16,323 nt of DNA from an uncultured Clostridium sp. (GTDB lineage: Bacteria; Bacillota; Clostridia; Clostridiales; Clostridiaceae), in assembly GCA_946575275.1 (NCBI GenBank), contig CAMNZV010000014.1, forward strand, positions 1-16,323, given 5' to 3'. The number at the start of each line of letters is the position of its first letter. Position 1 is the first letter of the stretch. Positions 1 to 15,054 of this stretch are shown here, piece after piece. Made by a program: the position numbers and the translations under genes. The notes under the pieces are model-generated. The model saw only the letters and a list, made by a program, of their open reading frames with translations. It was not told the origin of the DNA and did no database searches.

Positions 1-7
1 AATTTGA

Positions 8-13
8 TATAAT
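8..13 (+). promoter_or_regulatory. Probable -10 box of the aromatic operon promoter
   Basis: A perfect TATAAT hexamer lies at the very start of the window, with purines about 7 to 10 nt downstream that could serve as the transcription start near position 20. The -35 element would fall outside the window, so the promoter cannot be fully judged. Its placement about 45 nt ahead of the leader ORF and 280 nt ahead of the first enzyme gene fits a long regulated 5' leader. Confidence 0.55.
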
Positions 14-58
14 TATCACAAGGAAAAATATTTAGAAAATATGTAATTGGAGGACACA

Positions 59-190
59 ATGAAAGATGTTGTTAATGTAATTCAAGCAAAATTTTATAGC
101 TTTTTATATTTTACATTCTGGGGCTATTATTTTAGCGCTAGCTATTTGTTTTGCAAGAAAAATAATAATAACTTTTTAATGAGTGTATAA
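59..190 (+). CDS. Aromatic-rich leader peptide (43 aa)
   Basis: A short ORF starts at ATG 59 with GGAGGA (49-54) four nt upstream and ends at TAA 188-190. Residues 12-31 include FYSFLYFTFWGYYF followed by SASYLF. That is six Phe, five Tyr and one Trp in 20 residues, while residues 1-11 and 32-43 hold only one further aromatic residue (Phe39). No enzyme domain is possible at this length. The ORF sits directly upstream of a terminator and a nine-gene aromatic biosynthesis operon, so the inferred role is that of a cis-acting leader peptide whose translation rate reports charged tRNA-Phe, tRNA-Tyr and tRNA-Trp, analogous in principle to E. coli PheL and TrpL. Alternatives are a nascent-chain arrest peptide, or a tiny membrane protein, since the same stretch is hydrophobic. 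Too short for routine gene calling and likely to be missed in annotations. Confidence 0.75.
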   Translation: MKDVVNVIQAKFYSFLYFTFWGYYFSASYLFCKKNNNNFLMSV

Positions 191-237
191 ACTTTAACAT
201 AATTCTATAGATATTTTATATATAAAAGAGATTATTT

Positions 238-272
238 AAGAGAGCTCGTTATATTAACGGCGCTCTTTTTTT
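238..272 (+). terminator. Intrinsic terminator (attenuator) before DAHP synthase 1
   Basis: The arms AGAGC-T-C-GTT (241-250) and AACGGCGCTCT (256-266) pair with one T/C mismatch and one bulged G around an ATATT loop, followed by an uninterrupted T run to 272. The hairpin lies between the leader ORF and the first enzyme gene on the same strand, with no gene ending nearby other than the leader, so it must act as a conditional terminator for this operon rather than as the end of an upstream gene. Confidence 0.8.
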
Positions 273-297: not shown

Positions 298-1311
298 ATG
301 GTAGTAATTTTAAATCCACAAACAGAAAAATCAGAAATAACTAAATTATCTGAAGCACTTCAAAAGAAGGGTGTAGGGGTAAATGAAGTAATAGGAAAAG
401 ATTTAATAATATTAGGACTTGTAGGAGATACAAGTAAAATTGATCCAAGTGAAGTTGAAGCATATAGATGTGTAAGTAAAGTTATGAGAGTTGCAGAACC
501 TTTTAAAAAGGCAAATAAAATGTTTCACCCAGAACCAACAATAATAGATGTAAATGGACAAAAAATTGGTGGAAAAAAATTAGCGATGGTTGCAGGACCT
601 TGCTCAGTTGAAACAAAGGAACAAATAACTGGAATTGCAGAAGATGTTAAAAAAATCGGAGCAAATTTCTTAAGAGGTGGAGCATTTAAACCAAGAACTT
701 CACCATATGCATTCCAAGGATTAAAATATGAAGGTCTTGAATTATTAAAAGAAGCAAGAGAAAAAACAGGACTTCCAATAGTAACAGAATTAATGTCACC
801 ATATGACATAGAAGTATTTGAGAGAGATGTTGATGTTATACAAGTTGGAGCAAGAAATATGCAAAACTTTTCTCTTCTAAAAGAATTAGGTCAAACTAGT
901 AAACCTATATTATTAAAAAGAGGTCTATCTGCTACCATAGAAGAATGGTTAATGTCAGCAGAATACATTATGGCTGGAGGAAATCAAAATGTTATTCTTT
1001 GTGAAAGAGGAATAAGAACATTTGAGACATATACAAGAAACACATTAGATTTAAGTGCAGTGCCAGCTGTTAAGAAACTTAGCCACTTACCAATAGTAAT
1101 AGACCCAAGTCATTCAGCAGGTAAATGGTGGATGGTAGATCCATTAGCAAAGGCAGCAGTTGCAATTGGTTGTGATGGTCTTATAATTGAAGTTCATAAC
1201 GATCCAGATAATGCATTGTGTGATGGACAACAATCAATTAAGCCTAGCGTATATGGTAAATTATTTGAAGAATTAAAACTAATAGCAAATGCAGTTGGAA
1301 GAGAAATCTAA
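298..1311 (+). CDS. aroF: 3-deoxy-7-phosphoheptulonate (DAHP) synthase, type I-beta, copy 1
   Basis: Condenses phosphoenolpyruvate and erythrose-4-phosphate, the committed cytosolic step of the shikimate pathway. Residues 1-70 form the ferredoxin-like N-terminal domain that in Thermotoga maritima DAHP synthase mediates feedback inhibition. The TIM-barrel follows, with AGPCSVE (metal-ligand Cys102), KPRTSPYAFQG, LKRGLSAT, ERGIRTFE, DPSHSAG and EVHNDP. An in-frame ATG at 292 lies only 1 nt after AGGGGG (285-290). The ATG at 298 has normal 7-nt spacing and aligns residue for residue with the second copy at 6412 (both 337 aa), so 298 is preferred. It is the first enzyme gene behind the attenuator. 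B. subtilis-type enzymes carry a fused chorismate mutase; this one does not, and a free mutase is encoded downstream. The assignment is firm; which amino acid inhibits it is unknown. Confidence 0.95.
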   Translation: MVVILNPQTEKSEITKLSEALQKKGVGVNEVIGKDLIILGLVGDTSKIDPSEVEAYRCVSKVMRVAEPFKKANKMFHPEPTIIDVNGQKIGGKKLAMVAGPCSVETKEQITGIAEDVKKIGANFLRGGAFKPRTSPYAFQGLKYEGLELLKEAREKTGLPIVTELMSPYDIEVFERDVDVIQVGARNMQNFSLLKELGQTSKPILLKRGLSATIEEWLMSAEYIMAGGNQNVILCERGIRTFETYTRNTLDLSAVPAVKKLSHLPIVIDPSHSAGKWWMVDPLAKAAVAIGCDGLIIEVHNDPDNALCDGQQSIKPSVYGKLFEELKLIANAVGREI

Positions 1312-1332
1312 TAAATAACAGAGGTGAAAAAG

Positions 1333-2397
1333 GTGGAAAAGAATATTTTTGTAGACTTAAAAGAAAATAGTTACAATATACTAATAAAAAAAGGTATATT
1401 AAATAGTTTAGGAGAAAAAATATCTAAAATTTATAAAGGAAAAAAAATTTTCATAATAACTGATGAAAATGTTGACAAATATTATGGACAAAAAGTAGTA
1501 AATTCTTTAGAAGGTTCAGGATATTTAACAAAAAAAATAGTATTAAAGCCTGGTGAAGAAACAAAATCCTTTAACACCTTACAACCAATATATAAAGAAT
1601 TATTAGACTTTAAATTGACACGTAATGAACTTATAATAACATTAGGTGGAGGAGTAATAGGAGATTTAGGTGGATTTGCAGCATCTACTTTTCTAAGAGG
1701 GGTACCTTTTATACAGGTGCCAACCTCACTTCTTGCACAAGTAGATAGTTCTGTAGGTGGTAAAGTTGCAGTAGACCTTTTAGAAGGAAAAAATTTAGTA
1801 GGTAGCTTTTATCAACCTAAAGCAGTATTTATTGACCCAGAGGTTTTAAATACATTATCAGATAAATATTATAAAGATGGCATGGGTGAAGTTATAAAAT
1901 ATGGCTGTATTAAAGATAAGGACTTTTTCTATAAATTAATGGATTTTAAAAATAGAGATGAGGTCATGGATAACATAGAAGAAATAATATATAAATGTTG
2001 TCTAATAAAAAGTCAGATTGTAGAAATGGATGAAAAAGATTTAGGGGAAAGAATGTTACTAAATTTTGGACATACATTAGGTCATGCAATTGAAAAATAT
2101 TATGATTTTACAACTTATAGTCATGGAGAAGCTGTAGCAATTGGTATGTACAAAATATCAAAGATAGCAGAGAAACAAGGTATATCAAAAAAAGGTACAG
2201 CTGAAGAAATTAAAAAAATACTTATTAACTATGATTTACCCTACAAGGTTTTGTTAGATGATAATTCAGCGGTTATAGATACAATAGCATTAGATAAAAA
2301 GAACCTTGGAAGTATATTAAAGGTAATATTATTAGAGGAAATAGGTAAGAGTATAATATATGATACAAAACCAGAATTTTTTCAGGAGGGAAATTAA
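1333..2397 (+). CDS. aroB: 3-dehydroquinate synthase
   Basis: Converts DAHP to 3-dehydroquinate using bound NAD and a divalent metal, the second step of the shikimate pathway. The NAD-binding segment GGGVIGDLGG follows residue 104. Then come PTSLLAQVDSSVGGK and the metal-site residues Glu186 (GMGEVIKYG), His247 (FGHTLGHAIE) and His264 (SHGEAVAIGM). A GTG at 1324 is in frame, but it lies inside the Shine-Dalgarno sequence AGAGGTGA (1320-1327). The GTG at 1333 has a 6-nt spacer and gives a protein starting MEKNIFVDL (354 aa), so I prefer 1333. The stop TAA overlaps the aroA start by one base (TAATG), indicating translational coupling. Length is normal for the family and all key residues are present. 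Confidence 0.95.
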   Translation: MEKNIFVDLKENSYNILIKKGILNSLGEKISKIYKGKKIFIITDENVDKYYGQKVVNSLEGSGYLTKKIVLKPGEETKSFNTLQPIYKELLDFKLTRNELIITLGGGVIGDLGGFAASTFLRGVPFIQVPTSLLAQVDSSVGGKVAVDLLEGKNLVGSFYQPKAVFIDPEVLNTLSDKYYKDGMGEVIKYGCIKDKDFFYKLMDFKNRDEVMDNIEEIIYKCCLIKSQIVEMDEKDLGERMLLNFGHTLGHAIEKYYDFTTYSHGEAVAIGMYKISKIAEKQGISKKGTAEEIKKILINYDLPYKVLLDDNSAVIDTIALDKKNLGSILKVILLEEIGKSIIYDTKPEFFQEGN

Positions 2398-3695
2398 TGG
2401 CAAGTTATAAAGTTTTTCCAAATAAGTTAAGTGGCAAAGTCAATATTCCACCTTCAAAAAGTATGGCTCATAGGGCAGTAATATGTGCAGCTTTAGGAAA
2501 TGGCATAAGTAATATATACAACGTTGATATGTCAGATGATATTATTGCTACAATAAATGCAATGAGGGCACTTGGGGCAGTAATAAATCAGGTGGATGGG
2601 TTCCTTGAAGTTAAAGGAATAAATTACAATGGACTTAGTCTATCAAGGGATTATGAAAGAGTAATTGATTGTAACGAGTCAGGTTCAACCTTAAGATTCC
2701 TTGTGCCTATTGCTTTAGCCTTTGAAGGAATTTCAAGATTTGTAGGTAGAGGAAATCTTGGAAAAAGGCCTTTGAATACCTATTATGAAATATTTGAAAG
2801 ACAAGAAATCGAATATAGTAGTAAAGAAGGAGTATTAGATTTAGTAATTAAGGGAATACTAAAAAGCGGAGAGTTTAAAGTGCTTGGAAACATAAGCTCC
2901 CAATTTATAACAGGTCTTTTATTTGCATTACCATTACTTAAGGGAGATTCTAAAATTATTATAACTACAGAACTTGAATCAAAGGGTTATTTAGATTTAA
3001 CTCTTAAGGCACTAAAGGATTTTGGAATAACAATTATTAATAATGATTATAAAGAATTAATAATAAAGGGAAATCAAGAATACCAAAGCAGAGACTATAC
3101 TGTTGAGGGTGATTATTCACAAGGGGCATTCTTCTTATGTGGGGATGCTATAGGAAACGAAATAATAGTAGAAGGTCTTGATATGAATTCTCTTCAAGGG
3201 GACAAAGAAATAATAGATATTCTTAAAAGAATGGGTGGAGTAATTACAAATACTAATAATAGTATAACAATTAAATGTAACAAACTTAAAGGAACAGAAA
3301 TAGATGCATCCCAATGTCCCGATATTATTCCAGTTGTTTCACTTGTAGCTGCATTAGCTAAAGGTACAACAAAGATAATTAATGCAGGAAGACTTAGAAT
3401 AAAAGAATGTGATAGACTTCATGCAATTTGTTTAGAATTAAATAAACTAGGAGCAAAGATTACAGAAGGAGAAGATTATTTAATTATTGAAGGAGTACAT
3501 GAGCTTAAAGGTAACGTTACTGTTTGGAGTCATAAAGATCATAGAATAGCTATGACCCTTGCAATAGCAGCTTCAAAGTGCAAGGAACCAATAATTATAA
3601 AGGACTATGAATGTGTTTCTAAATCATATCCTTTGTTCTTTGAAGATTATAAAAATATAGGAGGAACTTTTAATGAGTGGAGTTTGGGGGAATAA
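2397..3695 (+). CDS. aroA: 3-phosphoshikimate 1-carboxyvinyltransferase (EPSP synthase)
   Basis: Transfers the enolpyruvyl group of PEP to shikimate-3-phosphate. The 432-aa protein shows the expected landmarks: PPSKSMAHRA (Lys21, Ser22, Arg26), DCNESGSTLRF (91-101, in place of the LGNAGTAMRP loop of class I enzymes), GRGNLGKRPL, SSQFITGLL, GDYSQGAFF, PDIIP (Asp309), RIKECDR (Glu337) and HKDHRIAM (Arg383). The PEP-site Gly96 is kept, but the residues around it differ from the E. coli type: Thr97 is Ser and Pro101 is Phe. AGGAGGG at 2384-2390 lies inside the end of aroB and sets the ATG at 2397. The 3' end overlaps aroC by 23 nt. Function is confident. The effect of the altered loop on glyphosate sensitivity cannot be read from sequence alone. 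Confidence 0.95.
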   Translation: MASYKVFPNKLSGKVNIPPSKSMAHRAVICAALGNGISNIYNVDMSDDIIATINAMRALGAVINQVDGFLEVKGINYNGLSLSRDYERVIDCNESGSTLRFLVPIALAFEGISRFVGRGNLGKRPLNTYYEIFERQEIEYSSKEGVLDLVIKGILKSGEFKVLGNISSQFITGLLFALPLLKGDSKIIITTELESKGYLDLTLKALKDFGITIINNDYKELIIKGNQEYQSRDYTVEGDYSQGAFFLCGDAIGNEIIVEGLDMNSLQGDKEIIDILKRMGGVITNTNNSITIKCNKLKGTEIDASQCPDIIPVVSLVAALAKGTTKIINAGRLRIKECDRLHAICLELNKLGAKITEGEDYLIIEGVHELKGNVTVWSHKDHRIAMTLAIAASKCKEPIIIKDYECVSKSYPLFFEDYKNIGGTFNEWSLGE

Positions 3696-4755
3696 CATAA
3701 AGGTTTCTATTTTTGGAGAGTCTCATGGAAGCGCCGTTGGAATTACAATAGATGGACTTCCATCAGGAATAAAATTAGACTTAAATGAAATAGATAAAGA
3801 AATGAAAAGAAGAGCACCAGGTAGAAGTAGTATTTCAACTGAAAGAAACGAAAGTGATATACCAGAAATATTAAGTGGCTTTTTTAATGAAAGAACTACA
3901 GGAACACCTCTTTGTGGAATTATAAGAAACAAAGATACACATTCTAAGGATTATAGCAATCTTAAGGATTTAATGAGACCAGGTCATGCAGACTATACCG
4001 GTAATGTTAGATATTCTGGATTTAATGATTATAGAGGTGGAGGACACTTTTCAGGAAGAGTTACAGCACCTATAGTATTTGCAGGAGCTATTTGCATTCA
4101 AATATTAGAACAAATGGGAATAACAATTGGTGCTCACATAAAAAGTGTAAAAGACATAGAAGATGATTCCTTTGATTTTACAAATATATCAGAAACTACG
4201 TTAAAAGCATTAAAAGAAGAGGAAATCCCATTACTTAATAAGTCCAATGAAGATAACATTAGAAAGGCCATATTAGAGGCTAAAAAGAATACAGATTCCC
4301 TTGGCGGAATTGTAGAGTGTGCTGTTATAGGTATAGATGCAGGTATAGGAAACCCATTTTTTGATTCAGTTGAATCAAATTTAGCACATCTTTTATTTTC
4401 AGTTCCTGCTGTAAAGGGTGTTGAATTTGGGTTAGGTTTCAAAATAACAGAATTATTAGGGTCAAAGGCTAATGATAGCTTTTATTATGATGGTGATATA
4501 GTAAAAACAAAAACAAACAATAATGGTGGAATACTTGGAGGTATTACAAACGGAATGCCAATAGTATTTAGAACAGCTATAAAGCCAACATCATCTATTA
4601 GTATAGAACAAGATACTATAAATATTAATACAAAAACAAATGAAAAATTAATAGTAAAAGGAAGACATGACCCTTGTATAGTTCAAAGAGCTGTTCCTGT
4701 AATAGAGGCTATTACAGCAATAGGAATTCTTGATTTAATAAGGGGGAAAAATTAA
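3673..4755 (+). CDS. aroC: Chorismate synthase
   Basis: Removes phosphate from EPSP to give chorismate, using reduced FMN. The 360-aa product has the family signatures GESHG (15-19, His18), RRAPGRSSISTERNE (47-60), MRPGHADYTG (101-110, His105), GGHFSGRVTAP, NGGILGGITNG and RHDPCIVQRAVPVIEA. AGGAGG at 3659-3664 sits within the last codons of aroA, 8 nt before the ATG, and the genes overlap by 23 nt. The TAA stop overlaps the next start by one base. No flavin reductase domain is fused, so FMN must be reduced by another cellular system, as in other bacterial monofunctional enzymes. Confidence 0.96.
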   Translation: MSGVWGNNIKVSIFGESHGSAVGITIDGLPSGIKLDLNEIDKEMKRRAPGRSSISTERNESDIPEILSGFFNERTTGTPLCGIIRNKDTHSKDYSNLKDLMRPGHADYTGNVRYSGFNDYRGGGHFSGRVTAPIVFAGAICIQILEQMGITIGAHIKSVKDIEDDSFDFTNISETTLKALKEEEIPLLNKSNEDNIRKAILEAKKNTDSLGGIVECAVIGIDAGIGNPFFDSVESNLAHLLFSVPAVKGVEFGLGFKITELLGSKANDSFYYDGDIVKTKTNNNGGILGGITNGMPIVFRTAIKPTSSISIEQDTININTKTNEKLIVKGRHDPCIVQRAVPVIEAITAIGILDLIRGKN

Positions 4756-5033
4756 TGTCAGATTTAGAAGGCTTTAGAGAAGAAATTGACTTAATAGACA
4801 AACAGATAACAAATCTATTTGAAGAAAGAATGAACATAGTACTAAAAATTGCACAATACAAAAAAGAAAACAACATTAGTGTATTACATTCAAGTAGAGA
4901 AGAAGAGGTAATTAGCAAGGCTGTTTCAAATTTAAAAAATAAGGATTATGAAACAGAATTAACAACTTTGCTAAATTGTATAATGGATATTAGTAAAAAT
5001 ATTCAAAACAAAAAAGTTGCTAAAAATGACTAA
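4755..5033 (+). CDS. Chorismate mutase, AroQ type, monofunctional
   Basis: Rearranges chorismate to prephenate, the branch point toward Phe and Tyr. The 92-aa, all-helical product matches the AroQ fold of the E. coli P-protein N-terminus. Arg8 (FREEID), Arg25 (EERMNIV), Lys36 (AQYKKEN) and Arg48-Glu49 (SSREEEV) align with the active-site Arg11, Arg28, Lys39 and Arg51-Glu52 of that enzyme. There is no fused dehydratase, dehydrogenase or DAHP synthase domain. It starts at an ATG sharing one base with the aroC stop, after a GGGGG site at 4742-4746. In some Firmicutes a free or fused AroQ domain also regulates DAHP synthase allosterically, so an interaction with the two DAHP synthases encoded nearby is possible but not shown. 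Confidence 0.9.
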   Translation: MSDLEGFREEIDLIDKQITNLFEERMNIVLKIAQYKKENNISVLHSSREEEVISKAVSNLKNKDYETELTTLLNCIMDISKNIQNKKVAKND

Positions 5034-5049
5034 TTTTAAGGAGAATAAT

Positions 5050-5865
5050 ATGGAGTTTTATGGATTGGTTGGCGAAAAATTATCTCATAGTCTTTCTCCT
5101 AAAATACATGAAAAGGTATTTGAATTTTTAAAGATAAAAGGTGGATATAAACTTTTTGAAATAGAAAAAGATAAGATTTCAACCTTAGGTGAAGGATTAA
5201 AACTATTAAAAATAAAGGGCGTAAATGTAACAATACCATATAAAGAAACTGTTATTCCAATGCTTGATTACATTTCTGATGAAGCAAAAGCGATAGGTGC
5301 AGTAAATACTATAAAATTAAAAGATAATAAATTATATGGCTATAATACTGATTATTTTGGCTTTGGATATTTATTAAAAACAAATAAAATAGATGTTAAT
5401 AATAAAATTGCAGCAGTTTTAGGTAATGGAGGTGCCTCAAAGGCAGTTTGCACCTACTTATTAGATAATAATATTAAAGACTTATATTTAGTTACTAGAA
5501 ACAAAGAAAAATCAGTAAACATAGATAATAGAATAAAATTAATAGATTATAAGGAGCTTAATTTAATTAAAGGTGATATATTAATAAATACTACACCACT
5601 TGGAATGTACCCAAAGGTGGGAATATCACCTGTAGATAGAAAAATAATAAATAACTTTAAAGCTTTAGTAGATCTTATTTATAACCCAGAGGAAACTGAA
5701 TTTTTAAAAATAGGTAAAAATCTTAATAAGATAACCTGTGGAGGTTTAATGATGCTAGTTGGACAAGGCATAAAATCTCAAGAAATTTGGCAAGATATAT
5801 CAATTAATGATAAAATTATTAATAGTATTTATGATTATCTAAAAGGAGATTTTTTAAATGGCTAG
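5050..5865 (+). CDS. aroE: Shikimate dehydrogenase (NADP+)
   Basis: Reduces 3-dehydroshikimate to shikimate. The 271-aa product shows LSHSLSP (shikimate-binding Ser14 and Ser16), NVTIPYKE (catalytic Lys65), GAVNTIK (Asn86), YNTDYFG (Asp101), the nucleotide-binding loop LGNGGASKAV (124-133), NTTPLGMYP and GGLMMLVGQG. The open frame extends upstream to a TTG at 5017 inside the chorismate mutase gene, with an ATG at 5026. The Shine-Dalgarno AAGGAG (5038-5043) lies 6 nt ahead of ATG 5050, and MEFYGLVGEKLSHS is a normal AroE N-terminus, so 5050 is chosen. Only 16 nt separate it from the mutase stop, and its 3' end overlaps aroK by 8 nt. Confidence 0.93.
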   Translation: MEFYGLVGEKLSHSLSPKIHEKVFEFLKIKGGYKLFEIEKDKISTLGEGLKLLKIKGVNVTIPYKETVIPMLDYISDEAKAIGAVNTIKLKDNKLYGYNTDYFGFGYLLKTNKIDVNNKIAAVLGNGGASKAVCTYLLDNNIKDLYLVTRNKEKSVNIDNRIKLIDYKELNLIKGDILINTTPLGMYPKVGISPVDRKIINNFKALVDLIYNPEETEFLKIGKNLNKITCGGLMMLVGQGIKSQEIWQDISINDKIINSIYDYLKGDFLNG

Positions 5866-6373
5866 TAATTTAAAAGATAAAATAGTACTAATTGGAATGC
5901 CAGGTTGTGGGAAAACTACAATTGGCAAGATATTGGCAAATGAATTAGGTTACTTTTTTTGCGATATGGATCAACATATTGAGAAGGTATCAGGGAAAAA
6001 TATACCTGAAATCTTTAGTGAAGGTGAAGATGTATTTAGAGAATTTGAAACAAAAGCATGCATAGATTTATCTTTGAAAAAAAGAATAATTATTTCCACC
6101 GGTGGTGGGGTTGTTAAAAATTCTGATAATATTAGGATATTAAAGGAAAATTCTATAATAGTATTTATTAATAGACCAATTACTGAAATAATAAAAGATG
6201 TAGATGTTTCAAGTAGACCATTACTAAAAGATGGACCTGAAAAGATTTATGAATTATATAATGAAAGAATTGAAAAATATGTAGAGGCTTCTGATATTGA
6301 AATAATAAATGATGGATATGTGAAAGAAGCAGTAGAGAAGATTTTAATATTAGTAAAAACTAAAATTAAATAA
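5858..6373 (+). CDS. aroK: Shikimate kinase
   Basis: Phosphorylates shikimate at the 3-hydroxyl with ATP. The 171-aa protein has a Walker A loop GMPGCGKTT (13-21), DMD (36-38) for shikimate and magnesium binding, FREFE with Arg61, STGGGVV (80-86), and the lid Arg120 in SSRPLL. The ATG at 5858 is preceded by AAAGGAG (5842-5848), and the gene overlaps the aroE 3' end by 8 nt, so translation is probably coupled. A 38-nt gap with its own strong Shine-Dalgarno site follows before the second DAHP synthase gene. I see no promoter or terminator in that gap. Confidence 0.94.
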   Translation: MASNLKDKIVLIGMPGCGKTTIGKILANELGYFFCDMDQHIEKVSGKNIPEIFSEGEDVFREFETKACIDLSLKKRIIISTGGGVVKNSDNIRILKENSIIVFINRPITEIIKDVDVSSRPLLKDGPEKIYELYNERIEKYVEASDIEIINDGYVKEAVEKILILVKTKIK

Positions 6374-6411
6374 ATTAAAAAATGTAGGATTGTAGTATAG
6401 GAGGAAGAAAT

Positions 6412-7425
6412 ATGATAATTATCATGGAATCAAAATGTACAGAAAAGGAAATTCAAAATGTTGTAGAGGTTGTAGAAAAGAAGGGACTTGAAGTTAATTT
6501 ATCAAAGGGATCAACATATTGTATAATAGGTTGTATTGGAGATACGTCTGTATTGGATCAAGGAGCACTTTTAAGAATTGATGGAGTATCAAAAGTTTTA
6601 AAGGTGCAGGAAGCATATAAAAAGGCAAACAAGCTGTTCCATCCAGAACCTTCAATAATTGATATTAATGGGGTTAAGGTTGGTGGAAGCCATCTTGGAA
6701 TAATGGCAGGACCTTGTTCTGTTGAAAGTGAAGAACAAATAATTGAAATTGCAAATAAAGTTAAAAAAGCAGGGGCAAACTTTATAAGAGGTGGGGCATT
6801 TAAACCAAGAACATCTCCCTATAGCTTTCAAGGTTTAGAACTTGAAGGGTTAAAACTATTAGAAATTGCAAAACAAGAAACTGGACTTCAAATTGTAACA
6901 GAATTAATGTCAACTGATTATATTGATGAGTTTGTTGATAGAGTTGATGTAATTCAAATTGGTGCAAGAAATATGCAAAACTTTGATTTGTTAAAACAAA
7001 TTGGTAGAACAAATAAACCAATATTACTTAAAAGAGGATTATCAGCTACAATAGAAGAATGGTTAATGTCAGCAGAATACATTATGGCTGGAGGAAATGA
7101 AAAGGTAATTCTTTGTGAAAGAGGAATAAGAACCTTTGAAACAGCAACAAGAAATACATTAGATTTAAGTGCCATTCCAGTTGTAAAGAAATTATCCCAT
7201 TTACCTATTATAATAGACCCAAGCCATGCAGGAGGATATAGATACTTAGTTGAACCACTTGCAAAAGCAGCAATAGTTGCAGGGGCAGATGGGTTAATGA
7301 TTGAGGTACACAATGATCCAGCAAATGCTTTAAGTGATGGACAACAATCAATTAAACCTGATGATTTTGATAAATTAATGGAAAAGATTAAGATTCTTGC
7401 TAAAATGGAAGACAAGGATATTTAA
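6412..7425 (+). CDS. aroF: 3-deoxy-7-phosphoheptulonate (DAHP) synthase, type I-beta, copy 2
   Basis: A second full-length 337-aa DAHP synthase in the same operon. It has the same architecture as the copy at 298-1311: an N-terminal ferredoxin-like domain (about 1-70), then the barrel with AGPCSVE (Cys102), KPRTSPYSFQG, LKRGLSAT, ERGIRTFE, DPSHAGG and EVHNDP. The catalytic barrel is very close to copy 1, including a 48-nt stretch identical at every base, while the N-terminal regulatory domain is much more divergent. Established work on T. maritima places Tyr/Phe feedback in this domain, so I infer isoenzymes with different inhibitors. AGGAGG (6399-6404) lies 7 nt before the ATG. tyrA follows 16 nt after the stop, which suggests, without proving, that this copy is tuned to tyrosine. 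Confidence 0.95.
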   Translation: MIIIMESKCTEKEIQNVVEVVEKKGLEVNLSKGSTYCIIGCIGDTSVLDQGALLRIDGVSKVLKVQEAYKKANKLFHPEPSIIDINGVKVGGSHLGIMAGPCSVESEEQIIEIANKVKKAGANFIRGGAFKPRTSPYSFQGLELEGLKLLEIAKQETGLQIVTELMSTDYIDEFVDRVDVIQIGARNMQNFDLLKQIGRTNKPILLKRGLSATIEEWLMSAEYIMAGGNEKVILCERGIRTFETATRNTLDLSAIPVVKKLSHLPIIIDPSHAGGYRYLVEPLAKAAIVAGADGLMIEVHNDPANALSDGQQSIKPDDFDKLMEKIKILAKMEDKDI

Positions 7426-7441
7426 TACAAGGGGGATAAAT

Positions 7442-8281
7442 ATGAATATAGTTATTGTAGGCCTAGGAGTTGTAGGAGGGTCCTTTGCAATGGCTTTAAA
7501 TAAGGCAGGTTTTACAGATGTATATGGAATAGATGTAAGTGAAGAAACCTTATTAAAGGCAAAGGAAAGAGGATTAATAAAGGATGGTAGTAAAACAGGA
7601 GAGGATTTATTAAAAAAGGCAGATCTAACAATTATATCAATATATCCAAAGCTATTAAAAGATTTTATTAAAACTAATGCAAGTTTCTTTAAAGATGGGT
7701 CTATAATAACTGATGCTACAGGAATAAAAGGAATGTTTATTAAGGATATAATAAGTATTTTACCTAAAAATGTAGATTTTGTTTTTGGACACCCTATGGC
7801 AGGACGGGAAAAAAAGGGAATAGATTATGCTAGTGATAGGGTTTTTAATGGAGCCAACTATATAATAACACCTATAGATTGCAATCAAGAAAAAAACCTA
7901 GATTTAGTAGAAAATTTGGCGAAAAAAATTGGATTTAAAAGTGTTATAAGAATAACACCAGAATTTCATGATGAAATGATAGGTTTTACCTCACAACTTC
8001 CTCATGCTTTAGCAGTAGCCCTAATAAATAGTGATGAAGAAAATAGAGAGACTGGCAAGTTTATAGGAGATAGTTATAGAGATTTAACAAGGATTGCAAA
8101 TATTAATGAGGATTTATGGAGTGAACTATTTTTAGGGAACAAGGAAAATCTAATTAAAGCTATTAATAAATTTGAAAAACAACTTGATTTATTAAAAGAA
8201 GCAATAGAAGATAATGATGTTGAGGCTCTTAAAAAACATTTTATTCAGTCAACTAAAAGAAGAGAAAAATTAGATAAATAA
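7442..8281 (+). CDS. tyrA: Prephenate dehydrogenase
   Basis: Oxidatively decarboxylates prephenate to 4-hydroxyphenylpyruvate with NAD(P), the tyrosine branch. The 279-aa protein opens with a Rossmann loop GLGVVGGS (7-14), followed by DATGIKG, FGHPMAGREKKG (His117), FTSQLPHALAVAL (His188) and SYRDLTRIA (Arg213). It ends soon after the helical dimerisation domain and has no C-terminal ACT domain, unlike B. subtilis TyrA. The open frame extends upstream to TTG 7397 within the previous gene, but AAGGGGG (7429-7435) lies 6 nt before ATG 7442 and MNIVIVGLG is the natural N-terminus. It is the last gene of the operon; a strong terminator begins immediately after the stop. Confidence 0.94.
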   Translation: MNIVIVGLGVVGGSFAMALNKAGFTDVYGIDVSEETLLKAKERGLIKDGSKTGEDLLKKADLTIISIYPKLLKDFIKTNASFFKDGSIITDATGIKGMFIKDIISILPKNVDFVFGHPMAGREKKGIDYASDRVFNGANYIITPIDCNQEKNLDLVENLAKKIGFKSVIRITPEFHDEMIGFTSQLPHALAVALINSDEENRETGKFIGDSYRDLTRIANINEDLWSELFLGNKENLIKAINKFEKQLDLLKEAIEDNDVEALKKHFIQSTKRREKLDK

Positions 8282-8282
8282 T

Positions 8283-8334
8283 AAAAAGGTTTGTAAATAA
8301 GTTATTAAAAAACAGCTTATTTACAGACCTTTTT
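8283..8334 (+). terminator. Bidirectional terminator between tyrA and the CYTH gene
   Basis: AAAAAGGTTTGTAAATAAG (8283-8301) pairs with CTTATTTACAGACCTTTTT (8316-8334) over 19 bp with one G/T wobble and a 14-nt loop. Each arm starts with A5 and ends in T5 on the opposite strand, so it can stop transcription from both sides: the aromatic operon on the plus strand and the convergent CYTH gene on the minus strand. The right arm overlaps the CYTH stop codon (8333-8335). Confidence 0.9.
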
Positions 8335-8866
8335 ACTTGTTTTCTTCTATAAGTTGATAAATAGTTTTAGAGGTAGTATCCTCCATTTTATAACCAAGGA
8401 ATTTAACTATTTTTTCAAGGTTTTCTTCACTATCAGTTTCGATTTCTAGGTATGGAAATGAACAAAAATTTGTGTCATTAATATCAATTTCCACTAAACC
8501 TTCAGGTAACCTATAGCTTTCTCTATATTTTGCAATGGATTGAAAAAGTTTTAAACCTAGAGAAGAAAAAATTCCCTCACCAGCTTTTTTATCTAGTATT
8601 ACAGTTTCATTTTCTTCCATTTCTTTAAACTTATCTTGAGATAAAATTTTCTTAGTTGTCATATATATAGTATCTTCACCATTTACTAAATTATGAACTG
8701 TTCTTATTCTTGCATATCCTTTGTTATGAAGAAGTCTTCTATCATCAAAGTCATGTAAATCATTGATTTGGTTTTCTTCTTTTACCTTTATAGCATTACT
8801 GTTAACTAATAGATTTCTTATAAAAGCAACATCTATTTTAATAATTCTAGTTTCAAGTTCAGTCAT
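8333..8866 (-). CDS. CYTH domain protein
   Basis: A 177-aa protein of the CYTH superfamily (class IV adenylate cyclase / thiamine triphosphatase / inorganic triphosphatase), whose members bind triphosphates in a tunnel lined by charged residues. The N-terminal signature is ELETR (Glu3, Glu5, Arg7; ExExK in most relatives). It is followed by YARIR (Arg53, Arg55), TTKK (Lys72), YRESYR (Arg115, Arg119), EIDIND (Glu126, Asp128) and LEIET (Glu141, Glu143), which is the expected alternation of basic and acidic pairs. GGGGG (8872-8876 on the minus strand) sets the ATG. The exact substrate cannot be decided; bacterial single-domain CYTH proteins are most often tripolyphosphatases or thiamine triphosphatases. 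It is divergent from deoD and unrelated to the aromatic operon. Confidence 0.82.
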   Translation of the reverse strand: MTELETRIIKIDVAFIRNLLVNSNAIKVKEENQINDLHDFDDRRLLHNKGYARIRTVHNLVNGEDTIYMTTKKILSQDKFKEMEENETVILDKKAGEGIFSSLGLKLFQSIAKYRESYRLPEGLVEIDINDTNFCSFPYLEIETDSEENLEKIVKFLGYKMEDTTSKTIYQLIEENK

Positions 8867-8959
8867 AAATAATCCCCCTATTGGATATATTAATAAATAT
8901 TCATATCTATTTTATCATGTTATTCATAAAAAATTAATATGAAAGTAAAAAAAATTTAG

Positions 8960-8965
8960 TATAAT
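8960..8965 (+). promoter_or_regulatory. Candidate -10 box for the deoD-sortase transcript
   Basis: TATAAT lies 34 nt before the deoD start in the 132-nt divergent spacer (8867-8998). No good -35 hexamer is visible at 16 to 18 nt upstream; TTAATA (8934-8939) has a 20-nt spacer. The spacer is otherwise very AT-rich, and a promoter for the CYTH gene must lie on its other strand (a weak TAAAAT-like -10 is possible), but I cannot assign it with confidence. Confidence 0.4.
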
Positions 8966-8998
8966 AATATTATATGACTTAATAAAGGAGGAATTTAT

Positions 8999-9703
8999 AT
9001 GGCAAAGCATTTACATATAATGACTGATAAAGATAATGTTTCTGATATAGTACTATTACCAGGCGATCCTTTAAGGGCAAAGTTTATTGCAGAAAATTAC
9101 TTAGATGATTATATATGTTATAATGAAGTAAGGGGGATGTATGGATTTACTGGAATGTACAAAGGTAAAAGAATTTCAGTTCAAGGTACAGGAATGGGAC
9201 TTCCATCACATTCTATTTATGTCAATGAATTAATTCAATTTTATGGAGCAAAAAAACTTGTTAGAGTTGGATCTGCAGGGTCAATAAATGAAAATGTTAA
9301 TGTTTATGATATAGTTATAGCACAGGGGGCTTGTACTAATTCAAATATTAATAAAAGACGATTTAATGGGCTTGACTATGCGCCAATAGGAAATTTCGAT
9401 TTAATCTGTAAGGCTTATAATAATACAATAAAAAAGGGGATACCAGTAAAGGTAGGAAATGTATTATCTTCTGATTTATTTTATGATGATACTGACTTTA
9501 AACTTAGTAGATGGGTTGATTATGGAGTTTTAGCTATTGAAATGGAAACAGCAGAGCTTTATACACTAGCTGCAAAATATAATGTTTTGGCATTATCAAT
9601 TTTAACTATATCAGACCATGTAATAAAGGGAATTGAAACTTCACCTAAAGAAAGAGAACAAAGCTTTACTGATATGATAGAGATTGCATTAGAATCAGTA
9701 TAG
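8999..9703 (+). CDS. deoD: Purine nucleoside phosphorylase, DeoD type
   Basis: Phosphorolyses purine (deoxy)ribonucleosides to base plus (deoxy)ribose-1-phosphate in nucleoside salvage. The 234-aa, hexameric-type enzyme has PGDPLRAK (Gly22, Arg26 for phosphate), YNEVRGMYGFTG (Arg45), GTGMGLPS, RVGSAGSI (Arg89), AIEMETAELY (Glu181-Met182-Glu183 for the ribose) and ISDH (Asp206, the purine N7 proton donor). GGAGG (8987-8991) lies 7 nt before the ATG. A sortase gene starts 14 nt after the stop, so they probably share a transcript although their roles do not obviously connect. Confidence 0.94.
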   Translation: MAKHLHIMTDKDNVSDIVLLPGDPLRAKFIAENYLDDYICYNEVRGMYGFTGMYKGKRISVQGTGMGLPSHSIYVNELIQFYGAKKLVRVGSAGSINENVNVYDIVIAQGACTNSNINKRRFNGLDYAPIGNFDLICKAYNNTIKKGIPVKVGNVLSSDLFYDDTDFKLSRWVDYGVLAIEMETAELYTLAAKYNVLALSILTISDHVIKGIETSPKEREQSFTDMIEIALESV

Positions 9704-9717
9704 AAAGTGAGAGTGTT

Positions 9718-10494
9718 ATGATGAAAAACAAAAATAAAACAAATAAAAGTGGTATATTAAGCAAAATTGTTTTAGCTATAGCTTTAATAGTTCTTGTAGT
9801 ATCAGGCTATCAGTTATTTAATATTTGGAGAGAATATCATAATAATTCAAAAACTTATGATGAAGTTAGAGAATATTCTCCAAATAATGATATTAAACCT
9901 GAAGAGGATCAAATTGAAAAATATAGGTTTAAGCAGGAGGATTATGATAATCTACTTGCAATGAATGGTGATTTCAAGGGATGGCTTACAGTGCCAGGAA
10001 CAGAAGTTAACTATCCATTAGTTCAAACTACAGACAACGAATATTATTTACATCATAATTTTAAGAAGGAATATAACGATGGTGGGGCAATATTTATTGC
10101 TTCAGAAAATAGTTCTCCTTTAAATGATGAAAATACAATAATTCATGGCCATCATATGAGAGATGGAAGTATGTTTGCATCACTTGGAAAATACAAGGAT
10201 GAAAATTTCTTAAAGGAAAATAATAAAATATATGTTTCTACAAGAGATAATGTATATGAGTATGAAATATTTTCAGTATATGTTATTACAGCAAATTTAA
10301 ATCCTTACAAAATAAACTTTGCAGAAAAAGATGAATATTTAAGTTACTTAAAAGAATTAAAAAGTAATTCATTATTTAATGTAGATCTTGAAGAATTTAC
10401 TCCAGAAGATAAAATAATAACATTATCTACTTGTACTTATGAAGTAGATGATGGAAGACTATTAGTTCATGCTAAGTTAAAGAGAATTGTATAG
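9718..10494 (+). CDS. Class B-like sortase (cysteine transpeptidase)
   Basis: A membrane-anchored transpeptidase that would attach surface proteins to peptidoglycan or pilin subunits. The 258-aa product has a short basic N-terminus, one transmembrane segment (about 13-34), an acidic linker, and a sortase domain from about residue 75. Catalytic residues are visible: His145 in HGHHMRDGSMF, Cys239 in TLSTCTY and Arg247 in DDGRLLVHA. TLSTC and GHHM resemble class B sortases such as S. aureus SrtB. There are two tandem ATGs (9718 and 9721) and only a weak Shine-Dalgarno (GTGAGAG), so the start is uncertain by one codon and expression may depend on coupling to deoD. No substrate with an LPXTG- or NPQTN-type C-terminal sorting signal is encoded in the window. 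Class D and E sortases are less likely because of the TLSTC motif and domain length. Confidence 0.85.
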   Translation: MMKNKNKTNKSGILSKIVLAIALIVLVVSGYQLFNIWREYHNNSKTYDEVREYSPNNDIKPEEDQIEKYRFKQEDYDNLLAMNGDFKGWLTVPGTEVNYPLVQTTDNEYYLHHNFKKEYNDGGAIFIASENSSPLNDENTIIHGHHMRDGSMFASLGKYKDENFLKENNKIYVSTRDNVYEYEIFSVYVITANLNPYKINFAEKDEYLSYLKELKSNSLFNVDLEEFTPEDKIITLSTCTYEVDDGRLLVHAKLKRIV

Positions 10495-10499
10495 GCTAT

Positions 10500-10545
10500 A
10501 AAAAAGTAGATAAATTTGTCAAAACGCAAATTTATCTACTTTTTT
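10500..10545 (+). terminator. Bidirectional terminator between the sortase and DUF2628-like genes
   Basis: A perfect 19-bp stem (10500-10518 with 10527-10545; the left arm contains AGTAGATAAATTTG) encloses an 8-nt loop, with A6 at one end and T6 at the other. It can terminate the sortase transcript on the plus strand and the convergent minus-strand gene, whose stop codon (10544-10546) overlaps its right edge. Confidence 0.9.
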
Positions 10546-11020
10546 ATTTTCTATTTAATAAAATTATTGTTAATATCATAATTAAACCCCAGACCATAAT
10601 AAAGGACAGTTGGTTTGAGGGAGCACCTCTTTCAGTTAATAGTTCTAATAATTTTTTGCCTCTGATATTATTATTCTTCTTTTTAATTTTGTCAATTTCT
10701 TTTTCTACTGATAATAAATAAATATTTGTGCCAAAGAATCCCATTAACAATAAAATTGTTACAAATAGGATAATTGATAATGGAAAAGGTATAGCAATTA
10801 ATATAGAAAGATAAGCCACAAGCACAATTAAAGATGGAATAAAAGCCTTCCTATAGGCAAGCCAAAAAGCATTAAGGAAAAATGCTACAGGTGACCAAAT
10901 AGGCTTATTAGGATTTATAAGGTATTTATCTAAGGTTTTTTTATAAAATGGGGTAGTTGCTTTTTTGCCAATATAGGCTTCCAGTTCTGCCCTTGTTGCT
11001 GTTAATTCTTTCATAGCCAT
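10544..11020 (-). CDS. DUF2628-like small membrane protein
   Basis: A 158-aa protein of unknown function. A soluble N-terminus (1-40) is followed by PIWSPVAFFLNAFWLAYRKAF (40-60), the W-x-P-x-FF...WL-YRK signature that I associate with DUF2628 proteins. After that come hydrophobic segments at about 60-78 and 79-103, a lysine-rich cytosolic-looking stretch (107-131), and a last hydrophobic segment at about 137-155. GGAG (11030-11033 on the minus strand) lies about 9 nt before the ATG; a second Met at residue 3 is possible. The fba terminator ends only 30 nt upstream, so the gene either uses fba read-through or a promoter overlapping that hairpin. No enzymatic motif is visible. Confidence 0.7.
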   Translation of the reverse strand: MAMKELTATRAELEAYIGKKATTPFYKKTLDKYLINPNKPIWSPVAFFLNAFWLAYRKAFIPSLIVLVAYLSILIAIPFPLSIILFVTILLLMGFFGTNIYLLSVEKEIDKIKKKNNNIRGKKLLELLTERGAPSNQLSFIMVWGLIMILTIILLNRK

Positions 11021-11049
11021 TACAATAACTCCTTTATAGATAGTATAAG

Positions 11050-11078
11050 AAAAAGATGACTCCTTGAGCCATCTTTTT
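11050..11078 (-). terminator. Terminator of fba
   Basis: AAAAAGATG and CATCTTTTT pair over 9 bp, continue after one A/C mismatch with CTC/GAG, and close on a 3-nt loop. On the minus strand this follows the fba stop codon by about 20 nt and ends in a T5 run. The stem is close to symmetrical, so it might also act weakly in the other direction. Confidence 0.75.
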
Positions 11079-11097
11079 AAATATGTCTTAACTTAAA

Positions 11098-11961
11098 TTA
11101 AGCTCTGTTTACAGAACCGAAAAGTTCCATTTTTTCTTTTACTGTAGCTTTTATAGCTTCAAATCCAGGTCCTAAAAGCTTTCTTGGGTCAAATCCCTTA
11201 CCTTGTAAGTCTTTTCCATCTTCAACATATTTTCTAGTTGCTGCTGCAAATGATAATTGACATTCAGTGTTAACGTTGATTTTAGAAACTCCAAGAGATA
11301 TTGCCTTTTTAATCATATCTTCAGGGATTCCAGTACCACCATGTAAAACTAATGGCATGTTTCCAACAGCATCAGCAATTTTAGCTAAAGCATCAAAATC
11401 TAAACCAGCCCAGTTTTCAGGGTATTTTCCGTGGATATTTCCAATTCCAGCTGCTAATATATCAACACCTAAATCAGCAATTTGTTTACATTCTGTAGGA
11501 TCTGCTATTTCACCAGCACCTACAACTCCATCTTCTTCACCACCAATTGAACCAACTTCACATTCAACTGAGATTCCTTTTGCTTTTGCATCTTTAATTA
11601 ATTGAGTACTTTTTGCTATGTTTTCATCAATTGCATAATGTGAACCATCAAACATAACTGATGAGAATCCAGCTTCTATACAAGCATAAGCTCCATCAAA
11701 TGAACCGTGATCTAAGTGAAGGGCAACAGGAACAGTTATTTTAAGATCCTTAATTAATCCATTAACCATACCAACAACAGTGTTGTATCCTCCCATGTAC
11801 TTACCTGCACCTTCAGAAACACCTAAAATAACTGGTGAATTGTTTTCTTGTGCAGTTAATAATATAGCCTTAGTCCATTCTAAATTGTTAATGTTAAATT
11901 GACCAACAGCATATTTTCCTGCCTTAGCCTTTTGCATCATTTCTTTTACTGAAACTAACAT
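11098..11961 (-). CDS. fba: Fructose-1,6-bisphosphate aldolase, class II
   Basis: Zinc-dependent aldolase that cleaves fructose-1,6-bisphosphate to dihydroxyacetone phosphate and glyceraldehyde-3-phosphate, or runs in reverse in gluconeogenesis. The 287-aa protein has LHLDHGS (Asp84 catalytic, His85 zinc ligand), ECEVGSIGGEEDGV (Glu135), GIGNIHGKYP (His177 zinc ligand), LVLHGGTGIPE (His207 zinc ligand) and SKINVNTE. GGAGG at 11968-11972 on the minus strand sets ATG 11961 with 6-nt spacing. It is monocistronic by layout: a terminator follows and a 107-nt regulatory spacer with a perfect palindrome precedes it. Its codons are cleaner and richer in GCA and GGT than its neighbours, as expected for a highly expressed glycolytic gene. 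Tagatose-bisphosphate aldolase is a related alternative, but the isolated context favours Fba. Confidence 0.94.
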   Translation of the reverse strand: MLVSVKEMMQKAKAGKYAVGQFNINNLEWTKAILLTAQENNSPVILGVSEGAGKYMGGYNTVVGMVNGLIKDLKITVPVALHLDHGSFDGAYACIEAGFSSVMFDGSHYAIDENIAKSTQLIKDAKAKGISVECEVGSIGGEEDGVVGAGEIADPTECKQIADLGVDILAAGIGNIHGKYPENWAGLDFDALAKIADAVGNMPLVLHGGTGIPEDMIKKAISLGVSKINVNTECQLSFAAATRKYVEDGKDLQGKGFDPRKLLGPGFEAIKATVKEKMELFGSVNRA

Positions 11962-12068: not shown

Positions 12069-12995
12069 TTAATTTTTACTAAGCAATTTAACAAGAACAG
12101 CTTTTTGAGCATGTAATCTGTTTTCAGATTCGTCAAATATTTCAGCAGAATGATCTTCAAGGACCTTAGCTGTAATTTCCTCTTCTCTGTGAGCTGGCAA
12201 ACAATGAAGAACAATTGCATTAGGATTTGCATGGGATACAAGCTCATCATTTATTTGGAAGGAAGCAAATGCTTTAGCACGAATTGCAGCCTCTTCTTCT
12301 TGTCCCATACTTGCCCAAACATCTGTTATAAGAACATCTGCATCTTTGCAAGCTTCAATAGGTGAGGATACAAGTTCAAATTTAGTTCCTTCAAGGCTTG
12401 CTAATTCTTTTGCACGATTTATATATTCTTCCTTTGGCTTATATGCATCAGGACAAGCAATTGAAAAGTTCATTCCAACCTTTAATGTTCCAATCATTAA
12501 AGAATGAGCCATATTATTACCATCACCAATATAGGCAACCTTTAGACCTTCTAAAGTGTTTTTATATTCTCTAATTGTCATTAAGTCAGCTAAAACCTGA
12601 CATGGATGTTCATCATCAGTTAATCCATTAATAATTGGAATACTAGAATATTTAGCAAGGGTTTCTACGTCTTTATGAGAATAAGTTCTAATCATAATTC
12701 CTTGTAAAAATCTTGATAATACTCTTGCAGTGTCTTCTATAGGTTCACCACGTCCAATTTGAAGGTCCTTTCCACTTAGAAAAAGTGGGTTTCCTCCAAG
12801 TTGATACATACCAGCTTCAAAGGATACTCTTGTTCTAGTAGAACTTTTTTCAAATATCATTCCAAGACTTTTGCCTTTTAAATGTTCATGAGGTATACCA
12901 TGTTTAAACTCATATTTTAATTGATCAGCTAAATTTAATATTTCTAAAATTTCCTCTTTAGTTAAATCGTCCATTTTTAATAAATCTTTTATCAA
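12069..12995 (-). CDS. argF: Ornithine carbamoyltransferase
   Basis: Forms citrulline from ornithine and carbamoyl phosphate. Counting from ATG 13001 (310 aa), motifs are STRTR (54-58, carbamoyl phosphate), HPCQ (132-135), DVWASMG (227-233, the ornithine loop) and HCLPAHR (266-272). The ATG at 13001 immediately abuts GGAGGG (13007-13002), leaving no spacer. The in-frame TTG at 12995 has a 6-7-nt spacer from the same site and gives MIKDLLKMDDLT, so I place the start there, with 13001 as the conventional alternative. It is the last gene of the arginine cluster, 13-19 nt after argD. A catabolic role (arcB) is possible for this family, but linkage to argJBD argues for biosynthesis. Confidence 0.93.
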   Translation of the reverse strand: MIKDLLKMDDLTKEEILEILNLADQLKYEFKHGIPHEHLKGKSLGMIFEKSSTRTRVSFEAGMYQLGGNPLFLSGKDLQIGRGEPIEDTARVLSRFLQGIMIRTYSHKDVETLAKYSSIPIINGLTDDEHPCQVLADLMTIREYKNTLEGLKVAYIGDGNNMAHSLMIGTLKVGMNFSIACPDAYKPKEEYINRAKELASLEGTKFELVSSPIEACKDADVLITDVWASMGQEEEAAIRAKAFASFQINDELVSHANPNAIVLHCLPAHREEEITAKVLEDHSAEIFDESENRLHAQKAVLVKLLSKN

Positions 12996-13014
12996 AATCA
13001 TCCCTCCAATTTTT

Positions 13015-14169: not shown

Positions 14170-14182
14170 AAAATAATACCTC

Positions 14183-15037: not shown

Positions 15038-15054
15038 TTTTTTGCCCCCCTAAA

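Follow-up and report, generated by a model that had tools for sequence, protein, structure and literature searches.

Leader-peptide attenuation is a textbook mechanism of the enterobacteria, with trpL, pheL and pheST (pheM) of E. coli as leader-peptide attenuators, and the Firmicutes are the textbook users of the T-box and TRAP. A 2003 study is said to have dealt with aromatic regulation in the low-GC Gram-positives. The His leader peptides before hisS*/hisZ in Bacilli are regular Firmicutes attenuators that replace the T-box, and the accessible part of that 2010 paper stated that no earlier amino-acid leader peptide was known outside Proteobacteria and Actinobacteria (PMC2965389). According to the accessible parts of the respective papers, an aroF leader peptide with Phe-Tyr-Phe was detected by RNA-seq in Corynebacterium glutamicum (PMC4046766, PMC3890552), and the candidate uORFC-13-1 had 24 representatives, found only in Acholeplasma and environmental sequences (PMC8632094). 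No description of the leader family analysed below was found in the accessible text of the open-access papers that the search covered; the accessible text of a C. difficile start-site paper did not mention aroF, and that of a C. difficile riboswitch review did not mention leader peptides.

The element at positions 59-272 of the window (the whole 16,323-nt stretch of DNA that was analysed) is read here as a ribosome-mediated transcription attenuator, with a probability of about 0.87, in which a stalled ribosome very probably switches the aro genes on under amino-acid shortage. Its ORF of 43 codons ran from ATG to TAA and encoded the peptide MKDVVNVIQAKFYSFLYFTFWGYYFSASYLFCKKNNNNFLMSV, and the counts of the first-pass annotation (6 Phe, 5 Tyr and 1 Trp, together 12 aromatic codons in residues 12-31) agreed with ours. 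Phe39, on the 3' side of the cluster, was the 13th aromatic codon, and about 20 residues of the peptide formed a hydrophobic stretch with basic residues behind it. The Shine-Dalgarno site, earlier called good, was GGAGG with a gap of 5 nt to the ATG. The listed ORF started at a TTG (47) four codons before this ATG, but the TTG start would overlap the GGAGG site, unlike the ATG at 59. Similar sites preceded most relatives, whose start codons were chosen partly by the Shine-Dalgarno site itself. Upstream, an extended -10 element was read from the sequence, while the -35 element was not in the window since the contig begins at base 1. The pattern TGnTA[TC]AAT occurred within 130 nt upstream of 101 leaders, compared with 7 after shuffling; 180 of the 181 leaders had 100 nt or more of upstream sequence.

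The T-tailed stem-loop, with a folding energy of -13.0 kcal/mol, started 47 nt past the leader stop, close to the 50 nt given previously, and a T-tailed hairpin was present after 176 of the 181 distinct leaders. A consensus terminator scan of positions 1-1500 gave no match, probably because the stem of 238-269 is interrupted. The minimum free energy (MFE) of the whole leader was moderately better than that of shuffled sequences (z -2.3), which on its own tells little. Downstream, aroF was listed from 292, but an ATG at 298 fitted the GGGGG at 286-290 and the homologues better. All nine genes of the aromatic operon claimed earlier were confirmed by Pfam, in the order DAHP synthase, aroB, aroA, aroC, chorismate mutase, aroE, aroK, a second DAHP synthase and prephenate dehydrogenase. 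Between this operon and an arginine cluster, positions 8333-11961 encoded a CYTH-domain protein, a nucleoside phosphorylase, a sortase, a DUF2628 protein and a class-II aldolase. The arginine cluster (12069-16275, minus strand) lay in the opposite orientation, with its upstream region running off the contig; it contained ornithine carbamoyltransferase and a class-III aminotransferase by Pfam, and acetylglutamate kinase and argJ by appearance.

Table 1. Positions of the leader features and the downstream operon in the window
Feature	Position	Strand	Basis
Extended -10 element TGATATAAT	5..13	+	Read from window sequence
Shine-Dalgarno site GGAGG	49..53	+	Similar sites precede most relatives
Leader peptide ORF, 43 codons	59..190	+	181 distinct relatives aligned
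P1, long hairpin GCAAAA..ATAGC / GCTAT..TTTTGC enclosing the cluster	86..154	+	RNAalifold
Control-codon cluster, residues 12-31 (6 Phe, 5 Tyr, 1 Trp)	92..151	+	
P2, hairpin CTGGGGCT(loop)AGCGCTAG inside the leader ORF	118..141	+	Consensus folding
Region 2, TAATGAGT, putative antiterminator 5' strand, codons Leu-Met-Ser	177..184	+	Complement of terminator arm
Intrinsic terminator stem-loop (regions 3:4), then T run	238..269	+	Folding
Region 3, GCTCGTTA, putative antiterminator 3' strand and part of terminator 5' arm	244..251	+	
aroF (DAHP synthase), operon gene 1	298..1311	+	Pfam
Operon remainder, aroB to prephenate dehydrogenase	1324..8281	+	Pfam

A scheme can be built on the observed conservation, gene context, two competing pairings with matched changes, and geometry of the leader. 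A short RNA would probably start about 40 nt before the leader ORF. With Phe-, Tyr- and probably Trp-tRNA charged, the ribosome would run through the cluster and cover or pass region 2; region 3 would then pair with region 4 to form the terminator, and RNA polymerase would stop before aroF. With any of these tRNAs short, the ribosome would stall in codons 12-31 and leave region 2 free to capture the nascent region 3, the terminator would be pre-empted, and the nine-gene operon would be transcribed.

Conservation was analysed by using the first DAHP synthase as query against 59 related genomes. The leader was found upstream in all 22 further first-copy aroF loci from same-genus genomes (L002-L023, 71-83% identity to the window aroF) and at L024 and L026, two loci further removed that belong to another family, and was absent at five loci with an aroF about 62-63% identical (L025, L027-L030). 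A 24-nt core pattern, allowing at most two mismatches, occurred exactly once per genome in 54 of the 68 genus genomes, and the same core read backwards was absent from all 68. A profile built from 23 leaders had matches in 126 of the 206 genomes of the family, representing 23 of 46 genera. With a broader profile, matches came from 54 of the 391 genomes of the class (in 34 of 222 genera) and from 13 of the 398 of the phylum (in 10 of 267 genera), 11 of these 13 lying outside the class. The tallies are slightly high because they include genomes with leaders judged doubtful (L182, L192 and L193 in the 126, L299 in the 54, L314 in the 13). Rows that were cut, weak or without aro context (L060, L182, L192 and L193, later also L299 and L314) were removed before the counts; L213 had no profile match. 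Loci were read for 80 of 81 chosen places and for the best 30 of the 54 matched places in the class. Across the genomes of 84,980 species, the exact pattern was found in 69 stretches, from genera that included Clostridioides, Romboutsia, Terrisporobacter, Intestinibacter, Alkaliphilus, Epulopiscium, Eubacterium, Fusibacter, Tepidibacillus and Trichococcus. The earlier description of an attenuator “in a Clostridium” was too narrow, since the leader is confined neither to one family nor to one class of the phylum. Alignment upstream of aroF in the relatives showed that the aromatic codons and the hairpin were both conserved; instead of the terminator being kept with the aromatic ORF lost, the two travelled together.

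An aro gene lay within 2.5 kb downstream in 62 of the 69 exact-pattern stretches. By similarity to the window's genes, 172 of the 181 distinct leaders preceded an aro gene, the first one recognised being aroF (152), aroB (8), aroK (6), aroE (3), chorismate mutase (2) or prephenate dehydrogenase (1). Nine leaders had no downstream match to these genes; inspection revealed that among them L167 and L179 preceded another type of DAHP synthase and L212 a prephenate dehydratase. L059 and L161 had little downstream DNA in the fetched sequence, and L219 and L250 had no ORF in theirs. The leaders L237 and L239 (Intestinibacter bartlettii) preceded a LarA-type (lactate racemase) gene, identified by Pfam for L239 only, a context suggesting that the racemisation of aromatic lactates is under aromatic control. 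In L239, the LarA-type gene was followed by a transporter-like ORF. Some genomes carried up to four leader copies ahead of different aro genes. L146, L158, L163, L165, L166, L167, L171 and L179, from genomes G116-G118 and G122, were extra copies, and the extra copies in these genomes preceded aroK, aroE or another DAHP synthase type, apparently one attenuator family copied to several operons within one genome.

The 5' arm of the terminator had the consensus RRCTCATTA in most leaders, and its complement, TAATGAGT, was located in the 3' part of the ORF. In the window, the pairing of region 2 with region 3 included two G-U pairs. TAATGAGT was read as Leu-Met-Ser in one group and as Asn-Glu-Phe in another, and since it is conserved in two reading frames, the RNA rather than the peptide is selected there. 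It began between 12 and 48 nt (median 29) past the last aromatic codon of the cluster, and the stop codon followed it at a distance of a few to about 55 nt among relatives. The spacing between regions 2 and 3 (sd 14.0) was only slightly less variable than the distance between stop and region 2 (sd 16.9), so that spacing alone shows little. When the 48 nt after the core were compared with the terminator arm, an ungapped run of at least seven pairs was found in 160 of 176 leaders; the same duplex was better than base-shuffled sequence, by a margin above 1 sd, in 166 leaders and not in the other 10. In a swap test, distinct leaders departing from the consensus were scored with their own region 2 or arm partner and with the median of swapped partners. 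The own partner was better in 32 of 33 leaders with both sides departing (sign test 8e-9), in 45 of 57 with a departing region 2 (43 of 55 under stricter merging), in 36 of 46 with a departing arm, and in 49 of 70 with either side departing (p 0.001; the remaining 21 paired no better with their own partner), all of these being counts of sequences rather than of independent events, with no tree used and relatedness ignored. Matched changes included TCTAAGAA/TTCTTAGA (L200), CTGAGTTT/AGACTCAG (L250), AGTGAG/CTCACT (L310), CATGAG/CTCATG (L308) and TATGAGT/GCTCATA (L006). The earlier reading as a ribosome-mediated attenuator was supported by these data, and the newly found antiterminator, with its matched changes, completes the proposed mechanism. 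Ten leaders had an arm of CCATTAT or similar without CTCATT (L141, L145, L148, L150, L156, L161, L169, L176, L187 and L189). This group paired weakly with region 2, six of its members (L141, L156, L161, L169, L176 and L189) were among the 21 swap-test failures, two (L187 and L189) had lost the Trp codon, and the switch may be altered in it.

The leader was folded with the footprint of a ribosome masked, as the first-pass annotation had proposed, with the 3' edge of the ribosome assumed to lie 13 nt past the first base in the A site. Region 2 of the window stayed free when a ribosome was stalled with its A site at codons 12-31, or at codon 34 or 36; from codon 37 on, region 2 was covered, including by a ribosome at the leader stop. 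In the MFE fold of the RNA up to the end of the terminator loop, regions 2 and 3 paired for 11 of the 12 aromatic A-sites in codons 12-31, the exception being codon 18. Region 2 could be placed in 169 of the 181 leaders; a stall at the last aromatic codon of the cluster freed it in 168 of these 169, and a ribosome at the stop covered it in 82, the stop lying further downstream in the others. In those others, a ribosome located past region 2, in the interval before region 3, may still hinder pairing of the two regions. Once complete, the terminator had a lower energy (-13.0 kcal/mol) than the fold that runs from region 2 to the terminator loop (-8.5, with the linker counted in), so that the switch has to work kinetically, with the order of synthesis deciding. 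Pairing of region 2 with the upstream leader, a candidate protector (1:2) structure that would hide region 2 from pairing in untranslated RNA, had a mean probability of 0.62, compared with 0.46 for shuffled sequence, and was higher than shuffled in 113 of 152 leaders. The hairpin P1, which encloses the cluster, was predicted by RNAalifold on 52 distinct genus sequences, with an energy of -16.6 kcal/mol in the window, and was not predicted for the other group folded alongside. An outer helix over the whole ORF, also predicted for the genus, was A/T-rich and was set aside.

Phe and Tyr codons were present in all 181 leaders, and the core held a median of 12 aromatic residues, with a minimum of 8. 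A Trp codon was found at the conserved place in 152 leaders and anywhere in 157; in 29 the conserved position was Leu, Phe, Gln or another residue. In the loop of P2 (columns 42-44), 95 of 119 non-consensus residues were another aromatic residue, and over the 11 aromatic columns the figure was 203 of 550 (37%), compared with the 1/8 to 1/6 expected of neutral single-base substitutions in TTT or TAT; these are counts of sequences, not of events. These patterns leave the sensing of Phe and Tyr well supported and that of Trp plausible, since UGG is also part of P2 and its retention is ambiguous and need not mean Trp sensing. Joint sensing of three charged tRNAs by one peptide, as suggested earlier, remains an inference.

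The hairpin P2 lies inside the cluster, with the Trp-Gly codons on its 5' arm, Phe/Tyr codons in its loop, and Ser-Ala-Ser (Ser-Ala-Gly in most relatives) on its 3' arm. Its pairs were C-G, U-G/A, G-U, G-C, a G.G mismatch, G-C and C-G. The base before the Trp codon was C in 180 of 180 leaders, the preceding codon being AGC, TTC, AAC, TAC, GGC, ATC, GAC or GTC and its residue Ser, Phe, Asn, Tyr, Gly, Ile, Asp or Val. In a window with a G+C content of 30%, the Gly after Trp was encoded by GGC (150/180), the Ser by AGC (159/180) and the Ala by GCT (149/180). Across 60 distinct cores, 93.6% of the cells were paired, above all 500 shuffles, and 9 cells showed changes on both sides, compared with a mean of 2.2 and with none of 500 shuffles as high; the weakest of the six pairs was still formed in 161 of 180 leaders. 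Matched changes were seen from GGC/AGC to GGT/AAC (L119 and L126) and from TGG/GCT to TTG/GCA (L183, L188, L294 and L304). Sliding the arms by -1 gave 7 both-side cells against the 9 observed, and 30% against 94% paired, so this control is not fully clean. An extension of the hairpin into the first two bases of the codon before Trp was rejected, as these bases paired in only 97 and 103 of 180 leaders. The stretch of the alignment that begins with the Ser of P2 and ends with the two Lys behind Cys was almost gapless in the 181 leaders, which would suit a hairpin-type pause of RNA polymerase, and P2 most likely pauses the polymerase so that the ribosome keeps step. One relative (L004, in genome G013) provides a natural test of P2: its leader was 18 nt shorter in frame and lacked most of the hairpin, so P2 is not essential everywhere.

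It is conceivable, at clearly less than even odds, that the leader is a dual-code regulator, in which the same 20-odd codons serve as a sensor of three tRNAs and as the nearly invariant P2 that times RNA polymerase, and that this element is ancient and phylum-wide. The motif Trp-Gly...Ser-Ala-Gly would then be conserved because its codons must fold, and the element could be the original aromatic control of Firmicutes, later replaced elsewhere by T-boxes or TRAP. Conservation of the same motif might also reflect arrest by the nascent peptide, with W-G-x-x-x-S-A-G stalling the ribosome itself, with or without a free aromatic co-effector as in TnaC, and throwing the same terminator switch. W, G, S, A and G were each present in at least 90% of 36 diverse rows, as arrest would predict, but the wobble bases were conserved like the amino acids, the invariant C stood before Trp, the pairs of P2 were kept while the residue before Trp varied rather than the peptide being conserved independently of codons and RNA pairing, Trp was replaced in the 29 leaders noted above, and Phe and Tyr swapped freely in the loop. 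Arrest by the end product before region 2 would moreover turn a biosynthetic operon on, which is the wrong sign, and this explanation is very improbable. We consider it highly improbable that P2 is itself a sensor (of an amino acid, a protein or RNA polymerase), riboswitch-like within an ORF and only modulated by translation: its core, including the G.G mismatch and the G-U pair, is nearly invariant and shows matched changes, but the aromatic codons outside P2 are also kept, P2 overlaps neither region 2 nor region 3 and so has no direct path to the terminator, and L004 retained the ORF, region 2 and terminator without most of it. A functional small aromatic membrane peptide merely lying ahead of a constitutive terminator is extremely improbable, because, despite the hydrophobic stretch with its basic flank, the lack of a Pfam domain, and the names “hypothetical” or “uncharacterized” in the best 120 of 198 database relatives, TAATGAGT is conserved independently of frame and changes in step with the terminator arm, the C-terminus and stop are variable, and the leader is linked to aro genes.

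If the element is the ribosome-mediated attenuator favoured here, a conserved leader family in Clostridia and some other classes, nearly always before aromatic genes, changes the textbook picture. Many “hypothetical proteins” about 35-60 residues long would gain a function, and regulation of aro genes would be predicted for many anaerobes. Its overlapping codes (control codons, hairpin and antiterminator) make a clean case that is open to synonymous recoding.

The leader was compared with known systems through databases and published descriptions. Pfam and NCBIfam gave no match for the leader peptide, and no Rfam family reached its gathering score in the window; at E values up to 5, positions 1-320 gave two weak matches, both to unrelated sRNAs. 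The T-box (RF00230) likewise senses whether tRNA is charged and controls a terminator ahead of amino-acid genes in Firmicutes, but in the window leader the ribosome would read the tRNA. As had been noted before, no T-box is visible: RF00230 had no match in the window at the gathering score and none in positions 1-320 at E values up to 5, and a T-box was rejected for the aro operon. The source genome had 15 T-box matches outside the window, 10 of them above the cut-off; by eye, the genes downstream of ten T-boxes (L264-L273 in G000) mostly resembled aminoacyl-tRNA synthetases and none resembled an aro gene. Likened by description, the His leaders of Bacilli differ in their His codons and in the genes they precede, as far as the accessible part of PMC2965389 goes. 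The C. glutamicum leader, likened in the same way from the accessible parts of PMC4046766 and PMC3890552, also precedes a DAHP synthase gene, but belongs to Actinobacteria and has a Phe-Tyr-Phe run, with no mention of Trp there. The accessible description of uORFC-13-1 (PMC8632094) combines a uORF whose U run encodes Phe at least once, a terminator just downstream, an additional base-paired substructure and a position always before aroF; set beside the window family by this description alone, it could be a relative. Like trpL, pheL and pheST of E. coli, the window leader has control codons in a short ORF, a terminator that competes with an antiterminator, and an early hairpin that overlaps the control codons, and the position of the ribosome would act as the switch. 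Unlike those attenuators, its peptide has all three aromatic codons, its family has a core peptide and RNA conserved between classes within one phylum, the position of the stop with respect to region 2 is variable, and P2 excludes region 2. The mechanism is best explained as classical attenuation, by what appears to be a new family, set apart as a variant by its nested hairpin and the variable position of its stop.
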